DNA of 64,000 bases from Croceicoccus sp. (lineage in GTDB: Bacteria > Pseudomonadota > Alphaproteobacteria > Sphingomonadales > Sphingomonadaceae): positions 62,001-126,000 of the forward strand of contig NZMY01000034.1 in NCBI GenBank assembly GCA_002694745.1, in the 5' to 3' direction. Positions within the stretch are counted from its first letter, which is position 1; each line of letters starts with the position of its first letter. The position numbers were made by a program, and so were the translations under genes. Positions 1 through 62,014 of the stretch are shown piece after piece. The notes beneath the pieces are model-generated. The model made no database searches, was not told the DNA's origin, and saw nothing but the letters and a program-made list of their open reading frames with translations.

Positions 1-208
1 AATCGCTGCCCAGTACCAGCCGTCCGGGTGCATCGACCGCCGCCGCCTTGGCTTCCGCCAGCGCAAGCGCGATGTCGCCGGCCGCGGCACCCGTCATCGC
101 GGCCTCCAGCGCGCGCTCGTCGATGTCGGCAGGCCGCGCCTCGAACGCGACGCCCGCCTGTTCCAGCATGGCCTGCCGCGACGCGCTCTTGGATGCGAGC
201 ACGATCAT
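1..208 (-). CDS. maf: Maf-family nucleotide pyrophosphatase (partial, runs off the left edge)
   Basis: Only the N-terminal 69 codons are present. The protein opens MIVLASKSASRQAML, the phosphate-binding signature of Maf/YhdE proteins, continues with the conserved PADIDE segment, and breaks off at the LVLGSD strand. Maf proteins hydrolyse non-canonical or ordinary nucleoside triphosphates to monophosphates as cytoplasmic housecleaning enzymes. The ATG at 206-208 overlaps the ppsR stop as ATGA, so the two are co-translated. In alphaproteobacteria ppsR and maf are usual neighbours beside hemE. The specific subgroup (dTTP/UTP or m7GTP type) cannot be decided from this fragment. Confidence 0.93.
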   Translation of the reverse strand, partial: MIVLASKSASRQAMLEQAGVAFEARPADIDERALEAAMTGAAAGDIALALAEAKAAAVDAPGRLVLGSD

Positions 209-1050
209 ACCGGCTTGGGCCCCGTATTGCCTTTCGACAGGCCGCTCTGCCGTTCATTGACCAGATTGATGACTGCCGCCGCCGTTTCCTCGATCGATCG
301 GCGCGTGACGTCGATCACCGGCCAGCCATTGTCGGCGAACATGCGGCGCGCGAATTTCAGTTCCTTTTCGACCCGGTCGTGATCGACATAATCCGTCTCG
401 GGCGCCTGGTTGAGCGACAGCAGCCGATTGCGCCGGATCTGGATCAGCCGGTCGGGCGATGTCGTCAGCCCCACGACCAGCGGCCGGCGCAGGCCGAACA
501 GCGCCTTGGGCGGCGGGGATTCGACCACGATGGGGATATTGGCGGTGCGATAGCCGCGATTGGCCAGATAGATCGAGGTCGGCGTCTTGGACGTGCGCGA
601 CACGCCCGCCAGCACGATATCGGCCTCTTCCCATTCCTCCCACAGCAGGCCGTCGTCATGCGCGATGGTGAACTGGATCGCCTCGACCCGCGCGAAATAG
701 GCCTCGTCCATGCGGTGCTGGCGGCCGGGGCGGGCATGCGCTTCCTGTCCCAGCAGGCTGGACAGGCGGCGCGTCACCTCGTCCAGTGCGGACACGGTGG
801 CCAGCCCCGCCTCGTCGCATTTTGACTCCAGCCTTTCGCGGATCTCCTGGTTCGCCAGCGTGAACAGCACGAGGCCCGGATTGCGCACGATTTCGCCCAT
901 GATGCGGTCGAGATGCTGCTGCGAGCGGACCATCGGCCAGAAATGGCGGTCGACATCGGCTCCCTCGAACTGCGCCAGCGCCGCCTTGGCGATCATTTCC
1001 AGCGTCTCGCCCGTGGAGTCAGACAGAAGATGCAGGTGCAGGCGGGTCAT
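205..1050 (-). CDS. ppsR: Phosphoenolpyruvate synthase / pyruvate,phosphate dikinase regulatory protein (DUF299)
   Basis: A 281-residue protein of the DUF299 family, bifunctional kinase/pyrophosphorylases that switch PEP synthase or PPDK off and on using ADP and Pi. It begins MTRLHLHLLSDSTGETLE, the conserved start of the family. It carries the nucleotide-binding P-loop GVSRTSKTPTS (about residues 149-159) and the usual downstream IYLANRG. Length is normal for the family. The rickettsial RP001 gene next to the replication origin belongs, as far as I recall, to this family. It is transcribed away from hemE and directly overlaps maf (ATGA). Which target enzyme it regulates cannot be seen here. 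Confidence 0.95.
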   Translation of the reverse strand: MTRLHLHLLSDSTGETLEMIAKAALAQFEGADVDRHFWPMVRSQQHLDRIMGEIVRNPGLVLFTLANQEIRERLESKCDEAGLATVSALDEVTRRLSSLLGQEAHARPGRQHRMDEAYFARVEAIQFTIAHDDGLLWEEWEEADIVLAGVSRTSKTPTSIYLANRGYRTANIPIVVESPPPKALFGLRRPLVVGLTTSPDRLIQIRRNRLLSLNQAPETDYVDHDRVEKELKFARRMFADNGWPVIDVTRRSIEETAAAVINLVNERQSGLSKGNTGPKPV

Positions 1051-1386
1051 TGCGCTATGATCGATCCTGGTCGCCGTAACGGCCGGTTGGGGGTTGTGGA
1101 CGAATAGGGCGATAAATCATGGGACGATGCCGGGGACAAGCAAAACGACCGATTCCGTCCCCGCTGCGAGTCCCGAACGGGCCAGGTTCTGGACAGGGGG
1201 TCCGCTTCGCCCACAGCCTGTTCATAAGGCGAAGAACTAGCGTTTGACTCACGTCGCATGCGGATTCGGGTTCGGCAATTTGCAGTGGCCTTGCGGTGAT
1301 AATTCGGGCAATCGCGACAATCCCCACAATCCACAGGACCAACAGAGTCCTTCAACCAATTATAAGAATCTTTCTTTTGGAGATTT
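1051..1386. other. oriC: Candidate chromosomal replication origin (ppsR-hemE intergenic region)
   Basis: This 336-bp non-coding gap separates the leftward ppsR-maf unit from rightward hemE. In Caulobacter and Rickettsia the origin lies between hemE and the RP001 homologue, the same arrangement. Six GANTC sites (CcrM methylation motif) start at 1151, 1168, 1246, 1263, 1345 and 1366, several times the chance density. CCACA-type, DnaA-box-like motifs sit near 1095-1100 (reverse), 1210-1215, 1322-1327 and 1330-1335, but none is a perfect TTATCCACA. An A/T-richer stretch lies at about 1351-1386 just before hemE. The synteny and motifs are seen directly; origin function is inferred. Confidence 0.5.
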
Positions 1387-2415
1387 ATGGCAGGCCCTCT
1401 TCTCGAAACGCTCAAGGGCAGGAATCTCGACCGGCGCCCGATCTGGCTGATGCGGCAGGCGGGACGCTATCTGCCCGAATACCGCGAATTGCGCGCGGAA
1501 AAGGGCGGGTTTCTCGCGCTGGTCTATGACAGCGAGGCCGCGGCCGAGATCACGATGCAGCCGTTGCGGCGGTTCGGTTTCGACGGGGCGATCCTGTTTT
1601 CCGACATTCTGATCGTGCCCTATGCGATGGGCCAGAACCTCGAATTCCTGGCGGGCGAGGGGCCAAAGCTTTCGCCAAGGCTCGCCGATGGGGCGCTGAG
1701 GGCGCTGGAAGGGGTGCCAGAGCGCCTTTCGCCGATCTACCGCACCGTGGAGCTTGTGAAGGCGCAGTTGAGCCCACAGCAGACCATGCTGGGCTTTGCG
1801 GGCGCGCCGTGGACGGTCGCGACTTACATGGTCAATGGCGAGGGCAGCCGCGACCAGCATGAAACGCGCGAAATGGCCTATGCCGATCCGCAAGGGTTTC
1901 AGGCGATCATCGATGCCATCGCCGATGTCACCATCGACTATCTGGTCGGCCAGATCGAGGCCGGGGCCGAGGCGGTGCAGGTGTTCGACAGCTGGGCGGG
2001 CAGCCTTGCGCCCGACGAGTTCGGCCGCTGGGTGATCGCGCCCACCGCGCGCATCGTGGCCGCGGTGCGCCAGCGCTGTCCGGGCGTGCCGATCATCGGC
2101 TTTCCCAAGGGCGCGGGCGAGAAGCTGGTCGCCTATGCCAAGGAAACGCTGGTCGATGCGGTGGGTGTGGACGAGTCGGTGGATATCGCGTGGGCAGCGC
2201 GTGAACTGCCGGAAAACATGCCGCTGCAGGGCAATCTGGATCCGCTGCGGCTGATGGCGGGCGGCGCGGAGATGGAGAGCCGCGTGCGCTTCATCCTCGA
2301 CGCCTGCGCGCACCGGCCGCATGTGTTCAACCTGGGTCACGGGATCGGCCAGTTCACCCCGATCGAGCATGTCGAGAGCCTGCTTGCCACCGTGCGCGGC
2401 TGGCAGCGGCCCTGA
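1387..2415 (+). CDS. hemE: Uroporphyrinogen decarboxylase
   Basis: A 342-residue HemE, which removes four carboxyl groups from uroporphyrinogen III to give coproporphyrinogen III in heme synthesis, in the cytoplasm. The N-terminal signature PIWLMRQAGRYLPEYR is at residues 18-33. Other family landmarks are ILFSDILIVPYAMGQ with the catalytic aspartate region, GFAGAPWTVATYM, and the C-terminal FNLGHGI. A GGAG Shine-Dalgarno at 1379-1382 supports the ATG chosen. Length is standard. It is the first rightward gene beyond the putative origin, followed by hemJ after 134 bp. Confidence 0.98.
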   Translation: MAGPLLETLKGRNLDRRPIWLMRQAGRYLPEYRELRAEKGGFLALVYDSEAAAEITMQPLRRFGFDGAILFSDILIVPYAMGQNLEFLAGEGPKLSPRLADGALRALEGVPERLSPIYRTVELVKAQLSPQQTMLGFAGAPWTVATYMVNGEGSRDQHETREMAYADPQGFQAIIDAIADVTIDYLVGQIEAGAEAVQVFDSWAGSLAPDEFGRWVIAPTARIVAAVRQRCPGVPIIGFPKGAGEKLVAYAKETLVDAVGVDESVDIAWAARELPENMPLQGNLDPLRLMAGGAEMESRVRFILDACAHRPHVFNLGHGIGQFTPIEHVESLLATVRGWQRP

Positions 2416-4500: not shown

Positions 4501-6114
4501 TCAGACCATGCGAAACGTCTCTGCGCTCGCCGCTTTCCAGTGGCGGGCGTATTGCGTGTTGTCGGGGTCTTCCACCAGCACGCCGGGTTTCAGGAACCGA
4601 TAGAACTGGTCCATCGAATCGGACCGCACCGAATTCAGCCGCTCGCCAATGTGATGCGGCTGGATCTGCCATGGATCGTCCAGCCCCATCGCAACCACGA
4701 TCTCGCGCAGCCCGTGCAGGGTCTGGCGCTGGAACCGCGCGACCCGTTCCGCCTTGTCCTCCACCACCAGCCCGCGCTGGCGCGTGGCGTCCTGCGTGGC
4801 GACACCGGTGGGGCATTCATCGGTGTGGCATTTCATCGATTGCACGCAGCCCAGCGCAAACATGAAGGCGCGCGCGGCATTGCTCCAGTCCGCGCCCAGC
4901 CCGAAATTCATCGCCAGCCCCGCGCCCGAATGCACCTTGCCTGCCGCCGCGATCTTCACCTGCGGCTTCAGCCCCGATCCGACCAGCATGTTGCGCACCA
5001 TGATCAGCCCCTCGCGCATCGGCATGCCGACACGGTTGGACAATTCGACGGGGGCCGCGCCAGTGCCGCCTTCGCCGCCGTCGACGACGATGTAATCGAC
5101 CGTGATGCCGGTCTCCAGCATGGCCTTGGCGATGGCCATCACCTCGTGCGGCTGTCCCACGCACAGCTTCAGCCCGACCGGCTTGCCGCCCGCCATCTCG
5201 CGCAGCCGGGCGCACCATTCGATCATCTCGATCGGCGTGGAAAAGGCCGAATGCCCGGGAGGCGACAGGCAATCCTCACCCACCGGCACGCCGCGCGCTT
5301 CGGCGATCTCGTCGGTCACCTTGCTGCCCGGCAGCAATCCGCCATGGCCGGGCTTCGCGCCCTGGCTCAGCTTGACCTCGATCATCCTGACCGTGTCGGC
5401 CTGCGCATTCTCGGCGAACAGGCCGGGATCGAAACTGCCGTCCTTGTTGCGGCAGCCGAAATAGCCGCTGCCCAGTTCCCACACCAGATCGCCGCCATGC
5501 GCCTTGTGATAGCGCGAGATGCCGCCTTCGCCGGTGTCGTGATAGAACCCGCCGCTGGATGCGCCCTTGTTCAGCGCCATGACCGCATTGGCCGACAGCG
5601 ATCCAAAGCTCATCGCCGAAATATTGAGCAGCGATGCGGAATAGGGCCGGCTGCACTGGTCCGATCCGACCTTACAGCGCCATTCCTTCGGTGCCTCCTT
5701 GGTGGGCGCGATGGAATGGCCAAGCCACTCATATTCCTCGGAATACACATCCAGCTCAGTGCCGAACGGATGCGAATCGAGCTGACCCTTCGCCCGCGCG
5801 TAGATCAGCGCTCGCTGGTCATGGTTGAAGGGCCGCCCTTCCAGATCGGATTCGATCAGATAGGAGCGGAAATAGGGCCGGAAATCCTCCATCAACCAGC
5901 GAAAGCGCGCGATCAGCGGATAATTGCGCCGCAGCGTGTGCCGGGTCTGGAAGAAATCCCACACCGCAATCAGCAGCAGCGGCACGGTGAGATAGGCGAG
6001 CCAGCGCACGCCAGGCCAGACCAGCGCAACCGCGGTTAGCACCACCAGCACCGCCGGCACCGCAAAGCGCGTGTAAAGATCAGCGGAGCGGCGCCAGCTG
6101 GCCCTGTTCTGCAT
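4501..6114 (-). CDS. FMN-binding glutamate synthase family protein (membrane-anchored GltB2 domain)
   Basis: A 537-residue protein with two N-terminal hydrophobic segments (about residues 16-33 and 36-51), then the FMN-binding glutamate-synthase domain. Conserved pieces include ISAMSFGSLSANAVMALN, GEGGISRYH, SQGAKPGHGG, VDGGEGGTGAAP and the cysteine cluster GCVQSMKCHTDECPTG, which in this family binds an Fe-S centre. It lacks the amidotransferase domain of true GltB. Such stand-alone proteins are annotated as ferredoxin-dependent or FMN-binding glutamate synthases; the real substrate is not established. It converges on rho and is followed closely upstream by the hydrolase gene. Confidence 0.9.
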   Translation of the reverse strand: MQNRASWRRSADLYTRFAVPAVLVVLTAVALVWPGVRWLAYLTVPLLLIAVWDFFQTRHTLRRNYPLIARFRWLMEDFRPYFRSYLIESDLEGRPFNHDQRALIYARAKGQLDSHPFGTELDVYSEEYEWLGHSIAPTKEAPKEWRCKVGSDQCSRPYSASLLNISAMSFGSLSANAVMALNKGASSGGFYHDTGEGGISRYHKAHGGDLVWELGSGYFGCRNKDGSFDPGLFAENAQADTVRMIEVKLSQGAKPGHGGLLPGSKVTDEIAEARGVPVGEDCLSPPGHSAFSTPIEMIEWCARLREMAGGKPVGLKLCVGQPHEVMAIAKAMLETGITVDYIVVDGGEGGTGAAPVELSNRVGMPMREGLIMVRNMLVGSGLKPQVKIAAAGKVHSGAGLAMNFGLGADWSNAARAFMFALGCVQSMKCHTDECPTGVATQDATRQRGLVVEDKAERVARFQRQTLHGLREIVVAMGLDDPWQIQPHHIGERLNSVRSDSMDQFYRFLKPGVLVEDPDNTQYARHWKAASAETFRMV

Positions 6115-6122
6115 GGCTGCGC

Positions 6123-6821
6123 TTACGCCAGATGCTTGCCGAAGAACTCCGCGGTGCGCTTGTCCGCCAGCTGTGCGCCCTGCTCATCGCGGCGCTTGCC
6201 GGATTGCGTGGCAAAGCCGTGATCCAGCCCCTCGTAATCATGCAGGGTCACGCGCGGGTGATCGTCCAGCCCTTCGTGCATCGCCTTTTGCGCATCCGCA
6301 TCGACAAAGCCGTCCGCCGTCGGGATATGCAGCATCAGCGGCTTGGCGATGGCATGGCTCTCGTTCAGCATCTTGTCGATCATCACGCCGTAATATCCGA
6401 CCGAGGCATCCACGTCGGTGCGCGCCGCCATCATATAGGCAAGCCGTCCGCCCGCGCAGTATCCGACGCAGCCGACCTTTTGCACGCCTTCCTCGCGGCG
6501 GACCCAGTGGACCGTCGATTCCAGGTCCTTCACCGCCTGGTCGAAGTCGAACTTGCCGAAATAGTCGAACGCCTGCTGCATCTCGTCCTCGACATCGGGG
6601 TCGAGTTCGATCCCCGGCTCAAACCGCCAGAACAGGTCGGGCGCGACGGCGAGATATCCGTCCTTGGCCAGCAGGTCGCACTTTTCCCGAATTCCGGCAT
6701 TCACGCCAAAGATCTCCTGAATGACGACGATCGCCGCCTTAGGCGTAGAGGAGGGCCGGGCGACATAGACGCCAAAGCTGCCGTCATTCTCAAGCGTGGG
6801 AACCGATTGGGCGAATTCCAT
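6123..6821 (-). CDS. Dienelactone hydrolase family protein
   Basis: A 232-residue alpha/beta hydrolase. It has the family signature IQEIFGVN near residue 37, the nucleophile elbow GYCAGGRLAY (Cys nucleophile), and the late histidine in YEGLDHGFA, giving the Cys-Asp-His triad of dienelactone hydrolases. Two close ATGs exist (6827 and 6821). AAGGAG lies only three bases before the first but nine before the second, so 6821 is preferred. Substrate is unknown; genome-wide many paralogues act on lactones or esters. It is separated by only a few bases from the downstream FMN protein and is probably in the same transcript. Confidence 0.9.
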   Translation of the reverse strand: MEFAQSVPTLENDGSFGVYVARPSSTPKAAIVVIQEIFGVNAGIREKCDLLAKDGYLAVAPDLFWRFEPGIELDPDVEDEMQQAFDYFGKFDFDQAVKDLESTVHWVRREEGVQKVGCVGYCAGGRLAYMMAARTDVDASVGYYGVMIDKMLNESHAIAKPLMLHIPTADGFVDADAQKAMHEGLDDHPRVTLHDYEGLDHGFATQSGKRRDEQGAQLADKRTAEFFGKHLA

Positions 6822-6939
6822 GGCCATTCTCTCCTTATGCGGTTGCGGGTGCTCGACCCAACCTAGGAAGCACCATTGGACATTGCCACCCGTCTGTGAC
6901 AGCGTGCACCCATGCATAAGGTTCCACGGGGTTAAGCCA

Positions 6940-7197
6940 ATGAAAGTGAATGTCGAATTCGATTGCTCGCCGGAAGAGGCGCGGCGCTTTCTTGGCCTGC
7001 CCGATGTCACGCGCGTGAATGAATATTACGTCGACACCATCATCAACACGATGAAGGGGACCGGAAATGTCGAGCAGATGCAGGAAATGATCAAGCAGTT
7101 CACCCCGATGGGTGAGCTGGGCCTGAAAATGTTCCAGCAGCTGATGGAAACCGGCGCGCAGGCGGCTTTCGGCAAGGGCGCCAAATCCACGAACTAG
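6940..7197 (+). CDS. Small conserved alphaproteobacterial protein (DUF6489-like)
   Basis: An 85-residue soluble protein beginning MKVNVEFDCSPEEARRFLGLPDV. It has a charged N-terminal half and a methionine/glutamine-rich helical tail (VEQMQEMIKQFTPMGE). Proteins with this opening recur in Sphingomonadales just before mnmE; I believe the family is DUF6489, but no function is established. The family-typical start at 6940 is chosen over in-frame upstream codons, which overlap the hydrolase promoter. It is upstream of mnmE with a 51-bp gap and may share its promoter. Confidence 0.78.
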   Translation: MKVNVEFDCSPEEARRFLGLPDVTRVNEYYVDTIINTMKGTGNVEQMQEMIKQFTPMGELGLKMFQQLMETGAQAAFGKGAKSTN

Positions 7198-7248
7198 GCC
7201 TGATCGCAGCATAGGGGCTGGATTTCGCCGCGCCGGGTGGGCACTGGC

Positions 7249-8547
7249 ATGGCCATGGCTGTCGACGACACGATCTTCGCCCTTTCCAGCGGCAATCCGC
7301 CCGCCGGCATTGCCGTGATCCGCATCAGCGGTCCGCGTGCCTCGTCGGTATTGCAGAGCCTGGGTGGACGCATTCCGCAGCCCCGCCGCGCCAGCGTGAT
7401 GCAGCTGCGCGATCCCGCCGACGCCAGCCTTCTTGACGAAACGCTGGTCCTGTTCCTGCCGGGCCCCCGCAATGCGACCGGCGAGGACTGTGCCGAGCTT
7501 CATTTGCACGGCGGCCGCGCGCTTGTGGCGAGGGTTCAGGAGGTTCTCGCATCGCTCGACGGATTGCGGCGCGCCGAACCGGGCGAGTTCACGCTGCGCG
7601 CCTTTCGCAATGGAAGGATTGATCTGGCCGAGGCCGAAGGGCTCGCCGATCTGCTGAGCGCGGAGACCGAACTGCAATTGCGCAATGCACAGGCGCTGAG
7701 CGGCGGAGCCTTTTCGCGGCGGGTCGGTGAGTGGCGGGACGAGGTGCTGTCGCTTTCGGCGCGGATCGAAACCCTGATCGACTTTTCGGATGAGGACGAC
7801 GCGGATGCCATCGAGCTGGACATGGCACGGGAGTGCGCCGTCTTGGCAGAAAGACTGGGCGAATGGCTGCACTCGCCGCGCGCGGAGGTGCTGCGCGAGG
7901 GGTTTCGCGTTGCCATTGGCGGGCCTCCAAACGCAGGAAAAAGTAGCCTGTTCAATGCTTTGATAGAGGATGAGGCGGCCATCGCAACGCCCATCGCGGG
8001 CACTACGCGTGACGCGCTGCATCGGCCCATCGCCTTGGGTGGCATCCCCTTCCTGTTCGTCGACACGGCGGGACTTCGCGACCGCACCGACGATACGATC
8101 GAGGCCATCGGCATAGAGCGGGCAGGCGCGGAACTCGCGCGCGCGGACCTTGTGCTATGGCTTGGCGAAAAGGGGCAGGGACCGGAGAATAGCTGGCAGA
8201 TCGAGACCAAGATCGATCTTCGAATCTCGCCGGCGGAGAAGATGGCGTCCGCCGATTTTTCGGTTTCTGCCGCGACGGGGGAGGGGGTCGACGCGCTTCG
8301 GACGGCTTTGATCGCAAGAGCAGCCGAAGCGATGCCTAAACCCGGCCAGATCGCGATCAACGAGCGGCAGGCCTCGCTGATCGAACAGGCGAGGGATAAT
8401 CTTGTCGAGGCTGGCCATCTGTCCGATCCCTTACTGATCGCCGAGTGTCTCCGCCGGGTGAGGAGTGCATTCGATCGGCTGCTGGGCAATACCGGCACGG
8501 AAGACATGCTCGACGCACTGTTCGGACGCTTCTGTATCGGCAAATAG
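7249..8547 (+). CDS. mnmE: tRNA modification GTPase MnmE (TrmE)
   Basis: About 432 residues. With MnmG it installs the (carboxymethyl)aminomethyl group on U34 of certain tRNAs. The N-terminal folate-binding domain opens [19 protein letters not shown]; then a helical domain; then the inserted G domain with Walker [11 protein letters not shown], the TAGTTRD switch, DTAGLRD, and a G4 written TKID instead of the usual NKxD. It ends in CIGK, the catalytic-cysteine tail of the family. Starts at 7237, 7249 and 7255 are all possible; 7249 best matches homologues. The stop is immediately followed by a parS palindrome. Confidence 0.96.
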
Positions 8548-8548
8548 A

Positions 8549-8564
8549 TGTTCCACGTGGAACA
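8549..8564. promoter_or_regulatory. parS: parS site 1 (perfect palindrome)
   Basis: TGTTCCACGTGGAACA is a perfect 16-bp palindrome of the ParB-binding parS class (consensus TGTTTCACGTGAAACA). The symmetry extends to 22 bp (8546-8567). It starts two bases after the mnmE stop, in the 68-bp gap before mnmG, and is the only site of the group outside a reading frame. Confidence 0.9.
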
Positions 8565-8615
8565 TCTACGCCTTTCTTCTTTGACCGTGATGCGCGCGAA
8601 CGGTATGGGCCGAAC

Positions 8616-10478
8616 ATGCATAATTTCGACGTCATTGTGGTCGGCGGAGGTCACGCCGGATGCGAAGCGGCCGCCGCCGCCGGACGTATGGGCGCGTCCA
8701 CCGCGCTTGTCACCTTCGACAAGAGCAAGACTGGGGCGATGTCCTGCAATCCGGCCATCGGCGGATTGGGCAAGGGACATCTGGTTCGCGAGGTCGACGC
8801 GTTCGACGGATTGATCGCCCGCGCCGCCGATCAAGCGGCGATCCATTATCGCATGCTCAACCGCTCAAAGGGCAGCGCCGTTCAGGGGCCGAGGGTACAG
8901 GCCGACCGCACCCTCTTTCGCCAGGCAATTCAGGCGATGATGTCCGAGACTCCGAACGTAACCGAGATCGAGGGCGAGGTGGCCGCACTGGTCATGTCGG
9001 GCGGTCGCGCGTGCGGCGTCGAACTGGCCAGTGGCCAGCGGTTGATGGCATCCGCGATCATCCTCTGCACCGGTACGTTTCTGGGGGGACGCCTCTTCCG
9101 GGGCGAGGAAAGGCTCGAAGGTGGGCGGATCGGCGAGAACAGTGCCCACCGGCTGGCCGCGCAATTGCGCGAAGCCAATCTACCCATGGCACGCCTCAAG
9201 ACAGGCACGCCACCGCGGCTCGATGGACGGACCATAGATTGGCAGCAGTTGCAACGGCAGGAGTCCGACGTCGAGCAATGGCTGATGTCGCCGCTGACGG
9301 GGAGCCGCCGGAATCCGCAATTATTTTGTGCGATCACCCGCACGAATGAACGAGCGCATGATATAGTCCGAGGTGGGCTCGACAGATCGCCGCTATTTTC
9401 GGGAGCCATCGATTCACGCGGTCCCCGATATTGTCCTTCCATCGAAGACAAGATCCACCGTTTCGGCGACCGTGACGGACACCAGATTTTCCTCGAACCG
9501 GAGGGTCTGGATAATGCGCTGATCTATCCCAACGGTATCAGCACATCGCTGCCCGTCGACATTCAGGAAGCGATGCTGAAGGCCATCGCTGGCCTCGAAC
9601 AGGTTCGCGTTATCGAGCCCGGATATGCTGTCGAGTATGATCATATCGATCCGCGCGCTCTCACGTCGACGTTGGAGCTCAAGGCCATGCCCGGCCTGTA
9701 TTGCGCCGGTCAGATCAATGGCACTACCGGCTATGAGGAAGCAGCCGCGCAAGGCCTGCTCGCCGGGCTCCACAGTGCTGCTGTTGTATTGGGACGCGAA
9801 GGGCCAAGGCTCGACAGGGCAAATAGCTACATGGCTGTAATGGTCGACGATCTTACATTGCAGGGCGTATCGGAACCCTATCGCATGCTGACCGCCCGCG
9901 CCGAATATCGGCTTCGCCTGCGCGCCAATAACGCATCCTCGCGTCTCACACCGATCGGGATCGATATCAGTTGTATAGGCAAGCAGCGCCGGGAATGGTT
10001 CGAAGCAAGGGAGAAGCAGGCCTTTGCGGTGCAGGATTGGCTGTCGCACTCTTGGTCGCGCGCCGATATTGTTTCACGTGGAACATCGGTCGCGCTGAGC
10101 GCAAGCGGCACGCGCCCACTGCGGGACTGGGCCCGGTTCGAAGAAATCCGCGACAAGATCGGCGATTGGGCCATGGAGGATGGCGTGGCGAGCGATAGCG
10201 ACCTGATGGAGGAGGTGAGCGAAAATCTTCTCTACGCCCCCTATCTCGAGCGACAGGATGCAGAGCTTCGCGACCTGCGTGCAGCCGAAGGGCTGACGAT
10301 TCCGAAGCACTTCGAATATGGCGCGCTCCCCGGCCTGTCTAACGAGATGAAGGAGCGTCTTTCGAATGCTAGGCCGGAAACCGTGTCTGCGGCCGGGCGT
10401 GTTCCGGGCGTGACTCCCTCTGCGCTCGCCGCCTTGGTTGTGAACATACGCAAGTATGAAAATGACCGGGCAGCATGA
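8616..10478 (+). CDS. mnmG: tRNA uridine-5-carboxymethylaminomethyl modification enzyme MnmG (GidA)
   Basis: A 620-residue FAD protein, partner of MnmE in wobble-uridine modification. It starts [19 protein letters not shown], the dinucleotide-binding motif. Further landmarks are TGTFLGG, the NGISTSLP stretch and [20 protein letters not shown]. The reading frame is open further upstream, but that extension crosses the end of mnmE and the parS site, so the ATG at 8616 is chosen. Length is typical. Codons encoding SRGTS at about residue 487 contain a second parS site. It overlaps rsmG by ATGA. Confidence 0.97.
10070..10085. promoter_or_regulatory. parS: parS site 2 (inside mnmG)
   Basis: TGTTTCACGTGGAACA differs from a perfect palindrome at one position, combining the two half-site variants TGTTTCAC and GTGGAACA. 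It lies wholly inside the mnmG coding sequence and is 1.5 kb from site 1. Confidence 0.87.
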
Positions 10479-11155
10479 CAAGGCCGGATATTGAGGTAAA
10501 TCGGCAGGACCGTCAGCAGGCTCTGGATTGGATAAATTCTCGACTTGGCGCAACGGATGCGCAAATCGAGCATTTGCATATGTTCGTTCGCATGCTCCTT
10601 GAGGAAGCCGAGGAACAAAATCTCATCGCCGCCGCGACGCGCCGGATTATCTGGTCGCGCCATATTCTCGACAGCGCCCAGCTGCTTGATCATGTTCCAC
10701 GTGAAACATCTATGTCATGGATCGATTTGGGGTCGGGGGCTGGGCTTCCCGGAATCGTCCTCGCGATCCTTCGGCCAGCCGATCAGTTTACTTTGGTCGA
10801 ACGCCGCCCATTACGCATCTCATGGCTGGAACGTGCGATTGACCGGCTCGAACTGCGCAATGCGCATGTCTGCGGTACCGCCGTTGCTGCCGTCCCTGAC
10901 CAGAAATTCGACGTTATCACCGCCCGCGCGTTCGCTCCGATGCCCAAGCTCTTGGCGATGGCCGGGCGCTTCGCTACCAAGGATACGTTGTGGCTGCTTC
11001 CCAAAGGACGGTCTGCGAATGACGAGGTGGCGGCAATTCCATCTTGGCAGAATACGTTCCACGTGGAACCTTCAGTTACGGACAGCGAATCGGGAATCAT
11101 AGTAGGTCGCATTGATCCCAAGGCGATCGGTCCCAAAGGCGGGGTGCGTCGATGA
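10475..11155 (+). CDS. rsmG: 16S rRNA (guanine(527)-N7)-methyltransferase RsmG (GidB)
   Basis: A 226-residue SAM-dependent enzyme that methylates G527 of 16S rRNA. The SAM-binding motif [14 protein letters not shown], the following [13 protein letters not shown] and the [13 protein letters not shown] segment are characteristic. It starts within the mnmG stop (ATGA, 10475-10478) and ends within the parA start (ATGA, 11152-11155), so it is translationally coupled on both sides. Two parS palindromes lie inside the gene, encoding HVPRETS and TFHVE. Length is ordinary. Confidence 0.96.
10693..10708. promoter_or_regulatory. parS: parS site 3 (inside rsmG)
   Basis: TGTTCCACGTGAAACA is within one base of a perfect palindrome and matches the classical consensus at 15 of 16 positions. 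It is within the rsmG reading frame, 0.6 kb from site 2. Confidence 0.9.
11055..11070. promoter_or_regulatory. parS: parS site 4 (near the end of rsmG)
   Basis: CGTTCCACGTGGAACC keeps the fully palindromic 14-bp core GTTCCACGTGGAAC (11056-11069) but lacks the flanking T and A. It is about 80 bp before the parA start, inside rsmG. Confidence 0.82.
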
Positions 11156-11928
11156 TTGTTATTGCAATCGCCAACCAGAAGGGCGGCGTGGGAAAGACGA
11201 CCACAGCCATCAATCTTGCCACCGCCTTTGCGGCGTCGGGCTGGCGGACATTGCTGATCGACCTCGATCCGCAGGGGAACGCCTCGACCGGGCTAGGCAT
11301 AGCGCGTGCAGATCGCGAAAATTCTAGCTTCGAGCTGCTGATCGACGGAGCGTCGCTGTCCGAATGTGCACGTGAAACGTCGATCCCGCTCCTCGACATC
11401 GTCCCGGCGACGGTCGACCTATCCGGGGCCGAAATCGAACTGGTATCGGCCGAGAACCGCACGCAGCGCCTGCGCGACGGTCTGACGGATCACGCCAAAT
11501 ATGACATCGCCTTCATCGATTGCCCGCCTTCGCTGGGCCTGCTGACTCTCAACGGCCTGGTCGCGGCGGACAAGCTGCTCGTCCCCCTGCAATGCGAGTT
11601 CTTCGCGCTCGAGGGTCTCAGCCAGCTGTTGCAAACCGTCGAGCAGGTACAGCAGCGCTTTAACGAGGATCTGGGCATCGTGGGCATCACGCTCACCATG
11701 TTCGACCGGCGCAACCGGCTGACAGACCAGGTAGCGGAGGATGTCCGCGAAGTGCTGGGCGACCTTGTCTTCGACACGGTCGTGCCGCGCAATGTGCGCC
11801 TGTCCGAAGCGCCGAGCCACGGCGTGCCCGCCCTCGTCTATGATCACAATTGCGCCGGTTCGCGGGCCTATATGGACCTTGCGCGCGAACTTATTGACCG
11901 GCTGCCCAAACGGAGGAAAGCGGCATGA
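11152..11928 (+). CDS. parA: Chromosome partitioning ATPase ParA (Soj)
   Basis: A 258-residue Walker-type ATPase that moves ParB-parS complexes toward the opposite pole. The deviant Walker A KGGVGKTT lies at residues 10-17 directly after the N-terminal strand [21 protein letters not shown] follows, and YDIAFIDCPPSLGLLT forms the Walker B region. The protein is a short, chromosome-type ParA with no N-terminal DNA-binding domain. It is coupled to rsmG and parB by ATGA overlaps. A degenerate parS-like half-site lies inside the gene at about 11364-11379. Confidence 0.97.
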   Translation: MIVIAIANQKGGVGKTTTAINLATAFAASGWRTLLIDLDPQGNASTGLGIARADRENSSFELLIDGASLSECARETSIPLLDIVPATVDLSGAEIELVSAENRTQRLRDGLTDHAKYDIAFIDCPPSLGLLTLNGLVAADKLLVPLQCEFFALEGLSQLLQTVEQVQQRFNEDLGIVGITLTMFDRRNRLTDQVAEDVREVLGDLVFDTVVPRNVRLSEAPSHGVPALVYDHNCAGSRAYMDLARELIDRLPKRRKAA

Positions 11929-12902
11929 GCAAGACCGCGGCAAAGGAAGACACCAAGCCAACCGCAAAGCGCCGCGCGGCGCTGGGCCGGGGGCTGGGCG
12001 CCTTGCTCGGCGATGCGCAGCGCGAGGAACCGGTCTCGCGTCCGCAGGCTTCCCACAATGCAAAGGCACCCGCGCCCGCGCCGGCGGAGGGCGTGACAAG
12101 TGGCCTTGCCCTGCTGGCGATAGCCTCGATCGAACCGCATCCGGAAAACCCGCGCGTCGAGTTCGAGGAAGGCGCTCTGGAAGAGCTCGCGGGCTCCATC
12201 GCCTCGCGCGGTGTGATTCAGCCGGTGATCGTGCGTCCGGCCAGCGGCGGCCGCTATCAGCTGGTCGCTGGCGAACACCGCTGGAGGGCTGCGCAGAAGG
12301 CGCAACTCCATGAAATTCCAGCAATAATTCGCGAACTGGACGACCGCGAGGTCACCGCTCTGGCGTTGATTGAGAACATCCAGCGCGAAGACCTCAACCC
12401 GGTCGAGGAAGCGCGCGCCTATCACCGCCTGTCCGACCGCGACGGCATGGCGCAGGCCGAGATTGCCCGACTAGTCGACAAGTCGCGCAGCCATGTCACC
12501 AATCTGATGCGCCTGCTTGCCCTGCCGCAGCCGGTGCTGGCGATGGTGGAGAAGGGCGCGCTGTCGATGGGCCACGCCCGCGCGCTGATCAATTGCCCCG
12601 ATGCCGAGGCGATTGCCGAAAAGGCCGTCGCCAAGAAGCTGTCGGTCCGCGATGTCGAGAAGCTGGTCCGCAAGCAGGCTGCGGGCGAAACCGCACAGCC
12701 CGCCCGCCGCGTGGCGCGTGAACCGCGCGGTCCGGAAAACGCCGATATCGCGGCGGTGCAGACTCAACTGGAAGACGCGCTGGGCCTGCCCGTGTCGATT
12801 CAGGTCGACGCGGATCCGGCATCGGGCACGGTGACGATTCGCTACAAGACGCTCGACCAGCTCGATCTGGTCTGTCAGCGCCTGACGGGCGGCGAAATCT
12901 AG
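11925..12902 (+). CDS. parB: Chromosome partitioning protein ParB (Spo0J)
   Basis: A 325-residue CTP-dependent DNA clamp that loads at parS. The N-terminal tail carries LGRGLGALLGD, the usual ParA-stimulating segment. The CTPase domain includes LVAGEHRWRAAQ and ALIENIQREDLNPVEEA. A helix-turn-helix around QAEIARLVDKSRSHVTNLMR reads parS, and a C-terminal dimerisation domain follows. It starts within the parA stop and its stop overlaps the convergent downstream gene by 3 bp. With four nearby parS sites it forms a complete ParABS system. Confidence 0.97.
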   Translation: MSKTAAKEDTKPTAKRRAALGRGLGALLGDAQREEPVSRPQASHNAKAPAPAPAEGVTSGLALLAIASIEPHPENPRVEFEEGALEELAGSIASRGVIQPVIVRPASGGRYQLVAGEHRWRAAQKAQLHEIPAIIRELDDREVTALALIENIQREDLNPVEEARAYHRLSDRDGMAQAEIARLVDKSRSHVTNLMRLLALPQPVLAMVEKGALSMGHARALINCPDAEAIAEKAVAKKLSVRDVEKLVRKQAAGETAQPARRVAREPRGPENADIAAVQTQLEDALGLPVSIQVDADPASGTVTIRYKTLDQLDLVCQRLTGGEI

Positions 12903-61757: not shown

Positions 61758-62014
61758 TGTTCGGCTATATTCTGGCCGCACTTTTCGCCTGTGTTGCGTG
61801 GTTGCAGCTGAGGTTAGCTTGGCGGGACTATCACAGTGGAATTTCGCGCGTTCGTATGATGCTGTTTGTGGATAGGAGTGGGCTCGCGATCTCGCGTTCT
61901 GATCGCCCGCGAATGTTTGCTTATGCTGTCGTTTGGAATGCCGTGATTGGCTTCGCGGCGGCTGCTGGAGCTATCTGGCTGCTGAATTTTGCTATTGCCT
62001 GGAATGCCTCATGA
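61757..62014 (+). CDS. Small membrane protein inserted between sufB and sufC
   Basis: An 85-residue protein with two membrane helices ([22 protein letters not shown] and AYAVVWNAVIGFAAAAGAIWLLNFAIAW) around a basic loop. Its codons (GCT, GTT, TTT, CGT, GGT) are more A/T-ending than those of the neighbouring suf genes, suggesting a different history. ATG 61757 overlaps the sufB stop (TGATG); a GTG three bases earlier is possible. No family recognised. The position inside the operon argues for co-expression with Suf, but a role is unknown. Confidence 0.7.
   Translation: MFGYILAALFACVAWLQLRLAWRDYHSGISRVRMMLFVDRSGLAISRSDRPRMFAYAVVWNAVIGFAAAAGAIWLLNFAIAWNAS

Follow-up and report, generated by a model that had tools for sequence, protein, structure and literature searches.

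Is the non-coding gap between ppsR and hemE in this Croceicoccus DNA a chromosomal replication origin, and, if it is, what part might its GANTC sites play there? The window, by which we mean the whole 64,000-base stretch analyzed here, covers positions 62001 to 126000 of contig C57, which belongs to a genome of 4.02 Mb in 59 unordered contigs. In its hemE protein it shares 92% identity with a Croceicoccus MAG and 86% with Croceicoccus mobilis, which makes the source a sphingomonad. An earlier note on this DNA had described the gap as a candidate oriC lying between a leftward ppsR and a rightward hemE, and both flanking genes are borne out by NCBIfam matches over cut-off:

205-1050, minus strand: ppsR (pyruvate, phosphate dikinase/PEP synthase regulator), left flank; NCBIfam PRK05339.1, E 1.3e-98, over cut-off
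1051-1386, no strand: very probable oriC, the non-coding gap between the divergent ppsR and hemE; 336 bp, with conserved blocks across 63 unique aligned gaps
1387-2415, plus strand: hemE (uroporphyrinogen decarboxylase), right flank; TIGR01464, E 5.4e-116, over cut-off

This arrangement is widely shared. Of the 72 hemE loci of the first round, counting that of the window, 71 have ppsR beyond the gap, the exception being L067. The divergent pair was also looked for in 40 other alphaproteobacterial families; 33 have it, and the remaining 7 lack it within the 1.4 kb taken. These 40 loci, one per family, were chosen by hand, with strong hemE matches favored, from the 198 of 241 genomes that gave a hemE match. 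We take ppsR to be the COG1806 gene. The origins of Caulobacter crescentus and Rickettsia prowazekii are placed between hemE and COG1806 in PMC1914354, and on that description they have the same flanking genes as our gap, in agreement with the earlier suggestion that the gap corresponds to the origin position in these organisms.

To the right of hemE, the genes mnmE, mnmG and rsmG, a gene for a ParA-type ATPase and parB were identified with NCBIfam at 7237-12902, and parS-like sites fall at 8550-11069, so that the par cluster placed some 7 kb away by the earlier note is indeed there. Its statement that most nearby rightward genes read away from the gap holds in part only, as the long open reading frames at 4501-6114 and 6123-7010 are, by eye, on the minus strand. 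The partitioning features are as follows:

8550-8563, no strand: parS-like site GTTCCACGTGGAAC; pattern search
10071-10084, no strand: parS-like site; pattern search
10694-10707, no strand: parS-like site; pattern search
11056-11069, no strand: parS-like site; pattern search
11152-11928, plus strand: ParA-type ATPase; ParA-superfamily NCBIfam matches, all listed ones below curated cut-offs
11925-12902, plus strand: parB; TIGR00180 over cut-off

The parS-like pattern GTTYCACGTGRAAC, presumably the parS consensus, was found at four places in the whole genome, all of them within window positions 8550-11069 and 7.2 to 9.7 kb from the gap. G036 is a single-contig relative of the same genus, and the 280 kb of it that were examined likewise contain four occurrences, 6.4 to 10.5 kb from hemE. 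Of the sites in the window, two are within rsmG, one is within mnmG, and one falls where mnmE and mnmG meet.

GC skew points to the same region at coarse scale. In the single-contig relatives G036 and G111, sampled in 20 stretches of 15 kb each, the skew switches sign near hemE and switches in the opposite sense about half a chromosome away. To one side of hemE the stretches have a skew below or close to zero, and to the other side mostly one above zero, although a few stretches run counter to this trend; the polarity of GGGNAGGG words in the sampled stretches broadly parallels it. On C57 itself, the mean skew is −0.024 on the left and +0.020 on the right, and the cumulative minimum, at 85,203, sits on a broad plateau 22 kb to the right of the gap; in G036 the cumulative minimum, also on a broad plateau, is at 1,546,024, 38 kb from hemE at 1,508,212. 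The skew that the earlier note would have had mark the origin does so as a coarse sign switch, near hemE in the two relatives and also present on C57, and not at the resolution of the fine minima. An origin profile, run over 154 kb of C57, gave the gap as its sole match, and it likewise found nothing else in 280 kb of G036.

Gene context, block conservation, parS-like clustering and the coarse skew switch in relatives thus all support the candidate, and we are confident that the gap is the chromosomal replication origin, of the hemE type. The origin itself is of a known kind and is not new, because hemE-linked oriC in Sphingomonadaceae has already been published: DoriC is reported to predict oriC near hemE for most members of the family, and the predicted origins of Sphingopyxis and other Sphingomonadaceae resemble this one in their position beside hemE, their conserved putative DnaA boxes and their putative unwinding element (PMC4741004). 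Two forks would depart from the gap, and ParABS would segregate the new origins, the parS sites lying 7 to 10 kb to the right.

The internal structure of the gap was examined in an alignment of 63 unique gaps, the window's own included, which were what was left of the 72 first-round loci after removal of L067, seven duplicate gaps and L074 (Caulobacterales). Their median pairwise identity is 57%, and they form 55 clusters at 90% identity. The earlier note had suggested looking for conserved motifs in this gap in related genomes, and the alignment has them, as conserved blocks amid freely varying sequence:

1095-1103, minus strand: DnaA-box-like element with two mismatches; relatives conserve TGTGGA
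1111-1124, plus strand: conserved block GATAAATCATGGGA (consensus GCATAAACCACGGGA); alignment
1151-1155, no strand: GANTC, not positionally fixed (24 of 63 gaps)
1168-1172, no strand: GANTC, not positionally fixed (11 of 63 gaps)
1212-1227, plus strand: CACAGCCTGTTCATAA, in place of ACAGGCTGGGGATAA in near relatives or CAGCCTGTGGATAA in far relatives; alignments
1244-1250, plus strand: TTGACTC, with TTGAC almost invariant; 19 of 63 gaps have the GANTC at 1246
1263-1268, plus strand: GATTCG, near-invariant CcrM-type site; GANTC in 63 of 63 and in 23 of 24 further gaps
1321-1350, plus strand: TCCCCACAATCCACAGGACCAACAGAGTCC, the main DnaA-box-like site CAATCCACA joined to CCAACAGANTCC; two mismatches in this genome
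1351-1386, no strand: AT-rich end adjoining hemE, candidate unwinding element; composition
1366-1370, no strand: GANTC, not positionally fixed (12 of 63 gaps)

An exact search of the gap for the DnaA box TTATCCACA found none, as had been reported before, and matches with two mismatches were found at three places, with about one expected by chance according to a hand estimate. The whole genome has nine perfect boxes, none of them on C57. Across the 63 gaps, perfect boxes occur 6 times compared to 0.1 in shuffles, and TCCACA is conserved at 1330-1335. The segment at 1212-1227 is also DnaA-box-like, on the minus strand and with two mismatches in this genome. In relatives, the block at 1321-1350 reads TCCCCG..ATCCACAGGGCCAACAGANTCC and is followed by the AT-rich end, of which 1351-1380 is 73% AT, no other 30 bases of the gap being richer. 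The several CCACA motifs noticed earlier amount to four occurrences of CCACA or TGTGG, at 1095, 1211, 1324 and 1331. DnaA would bind several weak boxes, the best conserved of them at 1327-1335, and would then open the AT-rich stretch adjoining hemE.

The CtrA-box patterns TTAA-N7-TTAA and TTAACCAT are nearly missing from these origins: with no mismatches allowed, the former was found once and the latter never in the 63 gaps. This is in keeping with the reported dispensability of CtrA in Sphingomonas melonis (PMC8116508) and differs from Caulobacter oriC, for which five CtrA sites are described (PMC1914354).

GANTC is concentrated in the gap as the earlier note had claimed, at several times the chance level. 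The six sites start at 1151, 1168, 1246, 1263, 1345 and 1366. The window as a whole holds 117 GANTC sites compared to about 300 in dinucleotide shuffles, a strong underrepresentation, and at this density approximately 0.6 would be expected in 336 bases; dinucleotide shuffles of the gap itself contain 1.8 on average, and six or more were reached in 15 of 5,000. C57 (156,461 bases) was scanned in steps of 20, and all the 336-base stretches richest in GANTC, those with seven, six or five sites, overlap the gap; the next ones listed have four. Seven control words of the same letters (e.g., GTNAC) occur no more than once each in the gap. The excess extends to the relatives, with about threefold more GANTC than in shuffles in sphingomonad gaps (294 versus 95.5, 124 versus 37.4, and 208 versus 61.3) and 1.5-fold more in the 33 gaps of other families (92 versus 62.5).

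Total counts of the longer word GAKTCG are less telling. In the 33 gaps of other families, unlike in the sphingomonads, this word is not enriched in total counts (22 versus 17.6; standard deviation, 4.0). In sphingomonad gaps the mirror word CGAKTC/GAMTCG also exceeds the shuffles (64 versus 24.9, 37 versus 10.2, and 63 versus 18.4), the first of these values making it as overrepresented as GAKTCG itself (81 versus 25.8). Among the other palindromic 5-mers with a free center, six of seven are depleted in the 63 gaps and AGNCT is threefold over shuffles (165 versus 54), which we attribute to the AGGCT and AGACT contained in conserved blocks. Since AGNCT and the mirror word are enriched too, total enrichment is no proof of selection on GAKTCG, and we relied on position-wise tests.

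Position by position, the emphasis that the earlier note had placed on GANTC survives in a narrower and stronger form: one of the six sites is near-invariant across sphingomonads, and the other five are not fixed. The GANTC at 1263-1267 is kept in all 63 aligned gaps, the window's own included, with N being G in 37, T in 25 and C in 1. The GANTC at 1345 is kept in 39 of 63. Pairs of GANTC 17 bases apart (1151/1168 and 1246/1263) were considered as a repeated unit and rejected, only 1263 being fixed. On a FastTree phylogeny of the 63 hemE proteins, the N of the 1263 site changed at least 13 times and its G, A, T and C 0 times each; the G that follows GANTC saw 4 changes, and each of the seven columns to the left and to the right saw 14 to 33. 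Independently of the alignment, 57 of 63 gaps and 21 of 24 further ones have a GANTC that begins at a distance of 16 or 17 bases from the GA of a preceding TTGAC or TTGAT.

These further gaps come from a second set of 40 loci, reduced to 38 by removal of L157, which is cut by a contig end, and L159, which has no ppsR and no profile match. They were divided at a near-profile E value of 1e-20 into 24 near and 14 far loci, a split that is mildly circular, as the near profile contains the 1263 site itself. None of the 24 near gaps exceeds 79% identity in its best local match to the first set, and 23 of these gaps keep the GANTC at 1263 (N is G in 17, T in 5, and C in 1). The sole miss, L126, was retained in the count and carries the far-type CGACTC. 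GAKTCG in full is present at this site in 58 of 63 and 22 of 24 gaps.

The far loci represent a second group of sphingomonads with a layout of its own, in which a DnaA-box-like CCTGTGGATAACGGGGAT precedes a GANTC that aligns to one column. This GANTC is kept in 13 of 14 loci and then in all 19 test loci, hence 32 of 33, and its N is always C or A; the test set was 20 loci minus L211 (no ppsR and no match), L205 being kept although its stretch has no ppsR, and L160 was retained as the far-group miss. The far site is preceded by C, giving CGAMTC, in 11 of 14 and 14 of 19 (25 of 33). CGAMTC is the reverse complement of GAKTCG, so both groups carry one word, inverted in one relative to the other. 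In the far gaps it is followed by GTCAA at a spacing of 28 to 29 bases in 10 of 14 and 15 of 19 loci, compared to 16 to 17 in the near layout, a difference of about twelve bases. As CGAMTC is followed by GTCAA on one strand or the other in both, it is suggestive, from these motif orders, that the near and far layouts share an inverted segment. Of the 120 sphingomonad origins counted over both layouts, 118 have the GANTC in its fixed position. Most origins of the far group (L142-L156 and L201-L220) also have a conserved block, GTCAAnCTGTTGGCAA, after CGAMTC. This block resembles what we take to be the IHF core.

The apparently new part of this locus is thus the fixed GANTC at 1263-1267 in what are, from their sequences, very probable sphingomonad origins. 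Among the matches listed in a search of the open-access full-text literature, no report of such a site was found in the text that the search covered. The genome has a CcrM-like gene (L120:661-1812) and a GcrA-like gene. The CcrM-like gene has a RAMA domain over the Pfam cut-off and scores 606 bits to NF050803, under the curated 830. The GcrA-like gene is over the Pfam cut-off and under the NCBIfam cut-off, in a Pfam search that also matched Sulfolobus among 14 controls. GcrA is proposed to activate methylated YGAKTCG promoters in PMC7987155, where the motif is given as YGAKTCK in the introduction and as YGAKTCG in the discussion. The GAKTCG core of this motif is present in the window at 1263-1268; the preceding Y is not conserved, the window having G there and a pyrimidine being found in 25 of 63 and 13 of 24 gaps.

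Most likely, the 1263 site is a methylation-marked element within oriC that is read by a protein in one orientation, although we regard the methylation-reading part of this interpretation as evenly balanced. The CcrM homologue would methylate the site, GcrA or another methylation-sensitive protein would read it, and a newly copied, hemimethylated origin would then behave differently from an old one. Judged by motif, GcrA may be considered the leading candidate reader. The tested CtrA-box patterns being absent from the origin, another once-per-cycle control would be expected in sphingomonads. More tentatively, and as a scheme that is less likely than not, we suggest that sphingomonad origins could be gated by a CcrM-methylated, GcrA-type GAKTCG, such that hemimethylation would report firing and a GcrA-like reader, together with the GTCAA/TTGAC half-site, would license or block the next round; this proposal draws on a single GAKTCG fixed within each of two layouts, in opposite orientations, in an origin without a CtrA-box pattern.

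It is conceivable, if on balance improbable, that the gap is oriC and that the fixed GAKTCG serves a protein indifferent to methylation, its overlap with GANTC being accidental. The orientation bias and the restriction of N, almost only G or T in the near group and only A or C in the far group, would be natural under this explanation, as would the flanking G in 58 of 63 gaps, which a symmetric methylation target alone would not need; however, four invariant bases around a variable N make up the CcrM pattern, and GANTC as a whole is in roughly threefold excess in sphingomonad gaps. We think it unlikely that the fixed site in oriC is mainly a GcrA-dependent promoter element of hemE, coupled to replication and not serving initiation. 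Such a role would fit the GAKTCG core of the proposed activation motif (PMC7987155), the GcrA homologue in the genome and the TTGAC or TTGAT that precedes the site, at 16 to 17 bases from GA to GA, in 57 of 63 gaps; yet a simple scan for an E. coli-type consensus, which does not model alphaproteobacterial promoters, found no sigma-70-like promoter at 1263, and in the far group the word points the other way and has a different spacing (28 to 29 bases) to GTCAA. The site was not adopted as a GcrA promoter because the Y is unmatched and no promoter is recognizable. That the gap is merely the divergent promoter region of ppsR and hemE, with its GANTC reflecting the intergenic enrichment described for most alphaproteobacterial chromosomes (PMC8116508) and the origin lying elsewhere, for which the local skew minimum 22 kb to the right would speak, is very improbable given the conserved blocks across the gap, the parS-like clustering and the skew switches near hemE in two relatives, the lack of a sigma-70-like promoter in the same E. 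coli-type scan, and the family prediction of the same place in PMC4741004.

The preferred reading, a methylation-marked element in oriC, invites comparison with better-known systems. Dam/SeqA control of oriC in gammaproteobacteria is mentioned in PMC11514494. Those origins have another methylase and another site, and the sphingomonad gap has one fixed site. The likeness to them lies in the clustering of methylation sites in the origin. Several GANTC are likewise described in the origins of C. crescentus and its close relatives in PMC3973325, where the proposal that CcrM takes part in initiation there is described along with its testing, and a review states that CcrM is not required for replication initiation in Caulobacter and that its overexpression disturbs chromosome number (PMC6090056). 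The GcrA/CcrM promoters with YGAKTCG described in PMC7987155 share with our locus the GAKTCG core around a CcrM site and the presence of CcrM and GcrA homologues, and they differ in that the 1263 site has no enriched Y and no recognizable promoter and lies inside an origin. A fixed GANTC is not mentioned in the text passages of PMC4741004 that describe the origins of Sphingopyxis and other Sphingomonadaceae. The fixed site bears on whether GANTC methylation acts directly on an alphaproteobacterial chromosomal origin, and a fixed GANTC whose N is nearly limited to two letters per group offers one exact position to mutate.

A few loci depart from the common arrangement. L067, from Sphingomicrobium lutaoense, is without ppsR upstream of hemE, and the far-layout profile still matches it at L067:4687-4996 (E 3.7e-28); by eye, the distance from the box to the next GANTC is about nine bases longer than in the far group. 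In L159 and L211, from two genomes of the family, hemE has neither ppsR nor an origin-profile match in the 1.1 kb upstream, and the origins of these two may have been relocated away from hemE. The ppsR-hemE gap is 675 bases long in L037 (Croceicoccus mobilis) and 574 in L057 (one Sphingomonadales MAG), compared to 291 to 376 in the rest of the 63, and these long gaps possibly reflect insertions or different ppsR starts.
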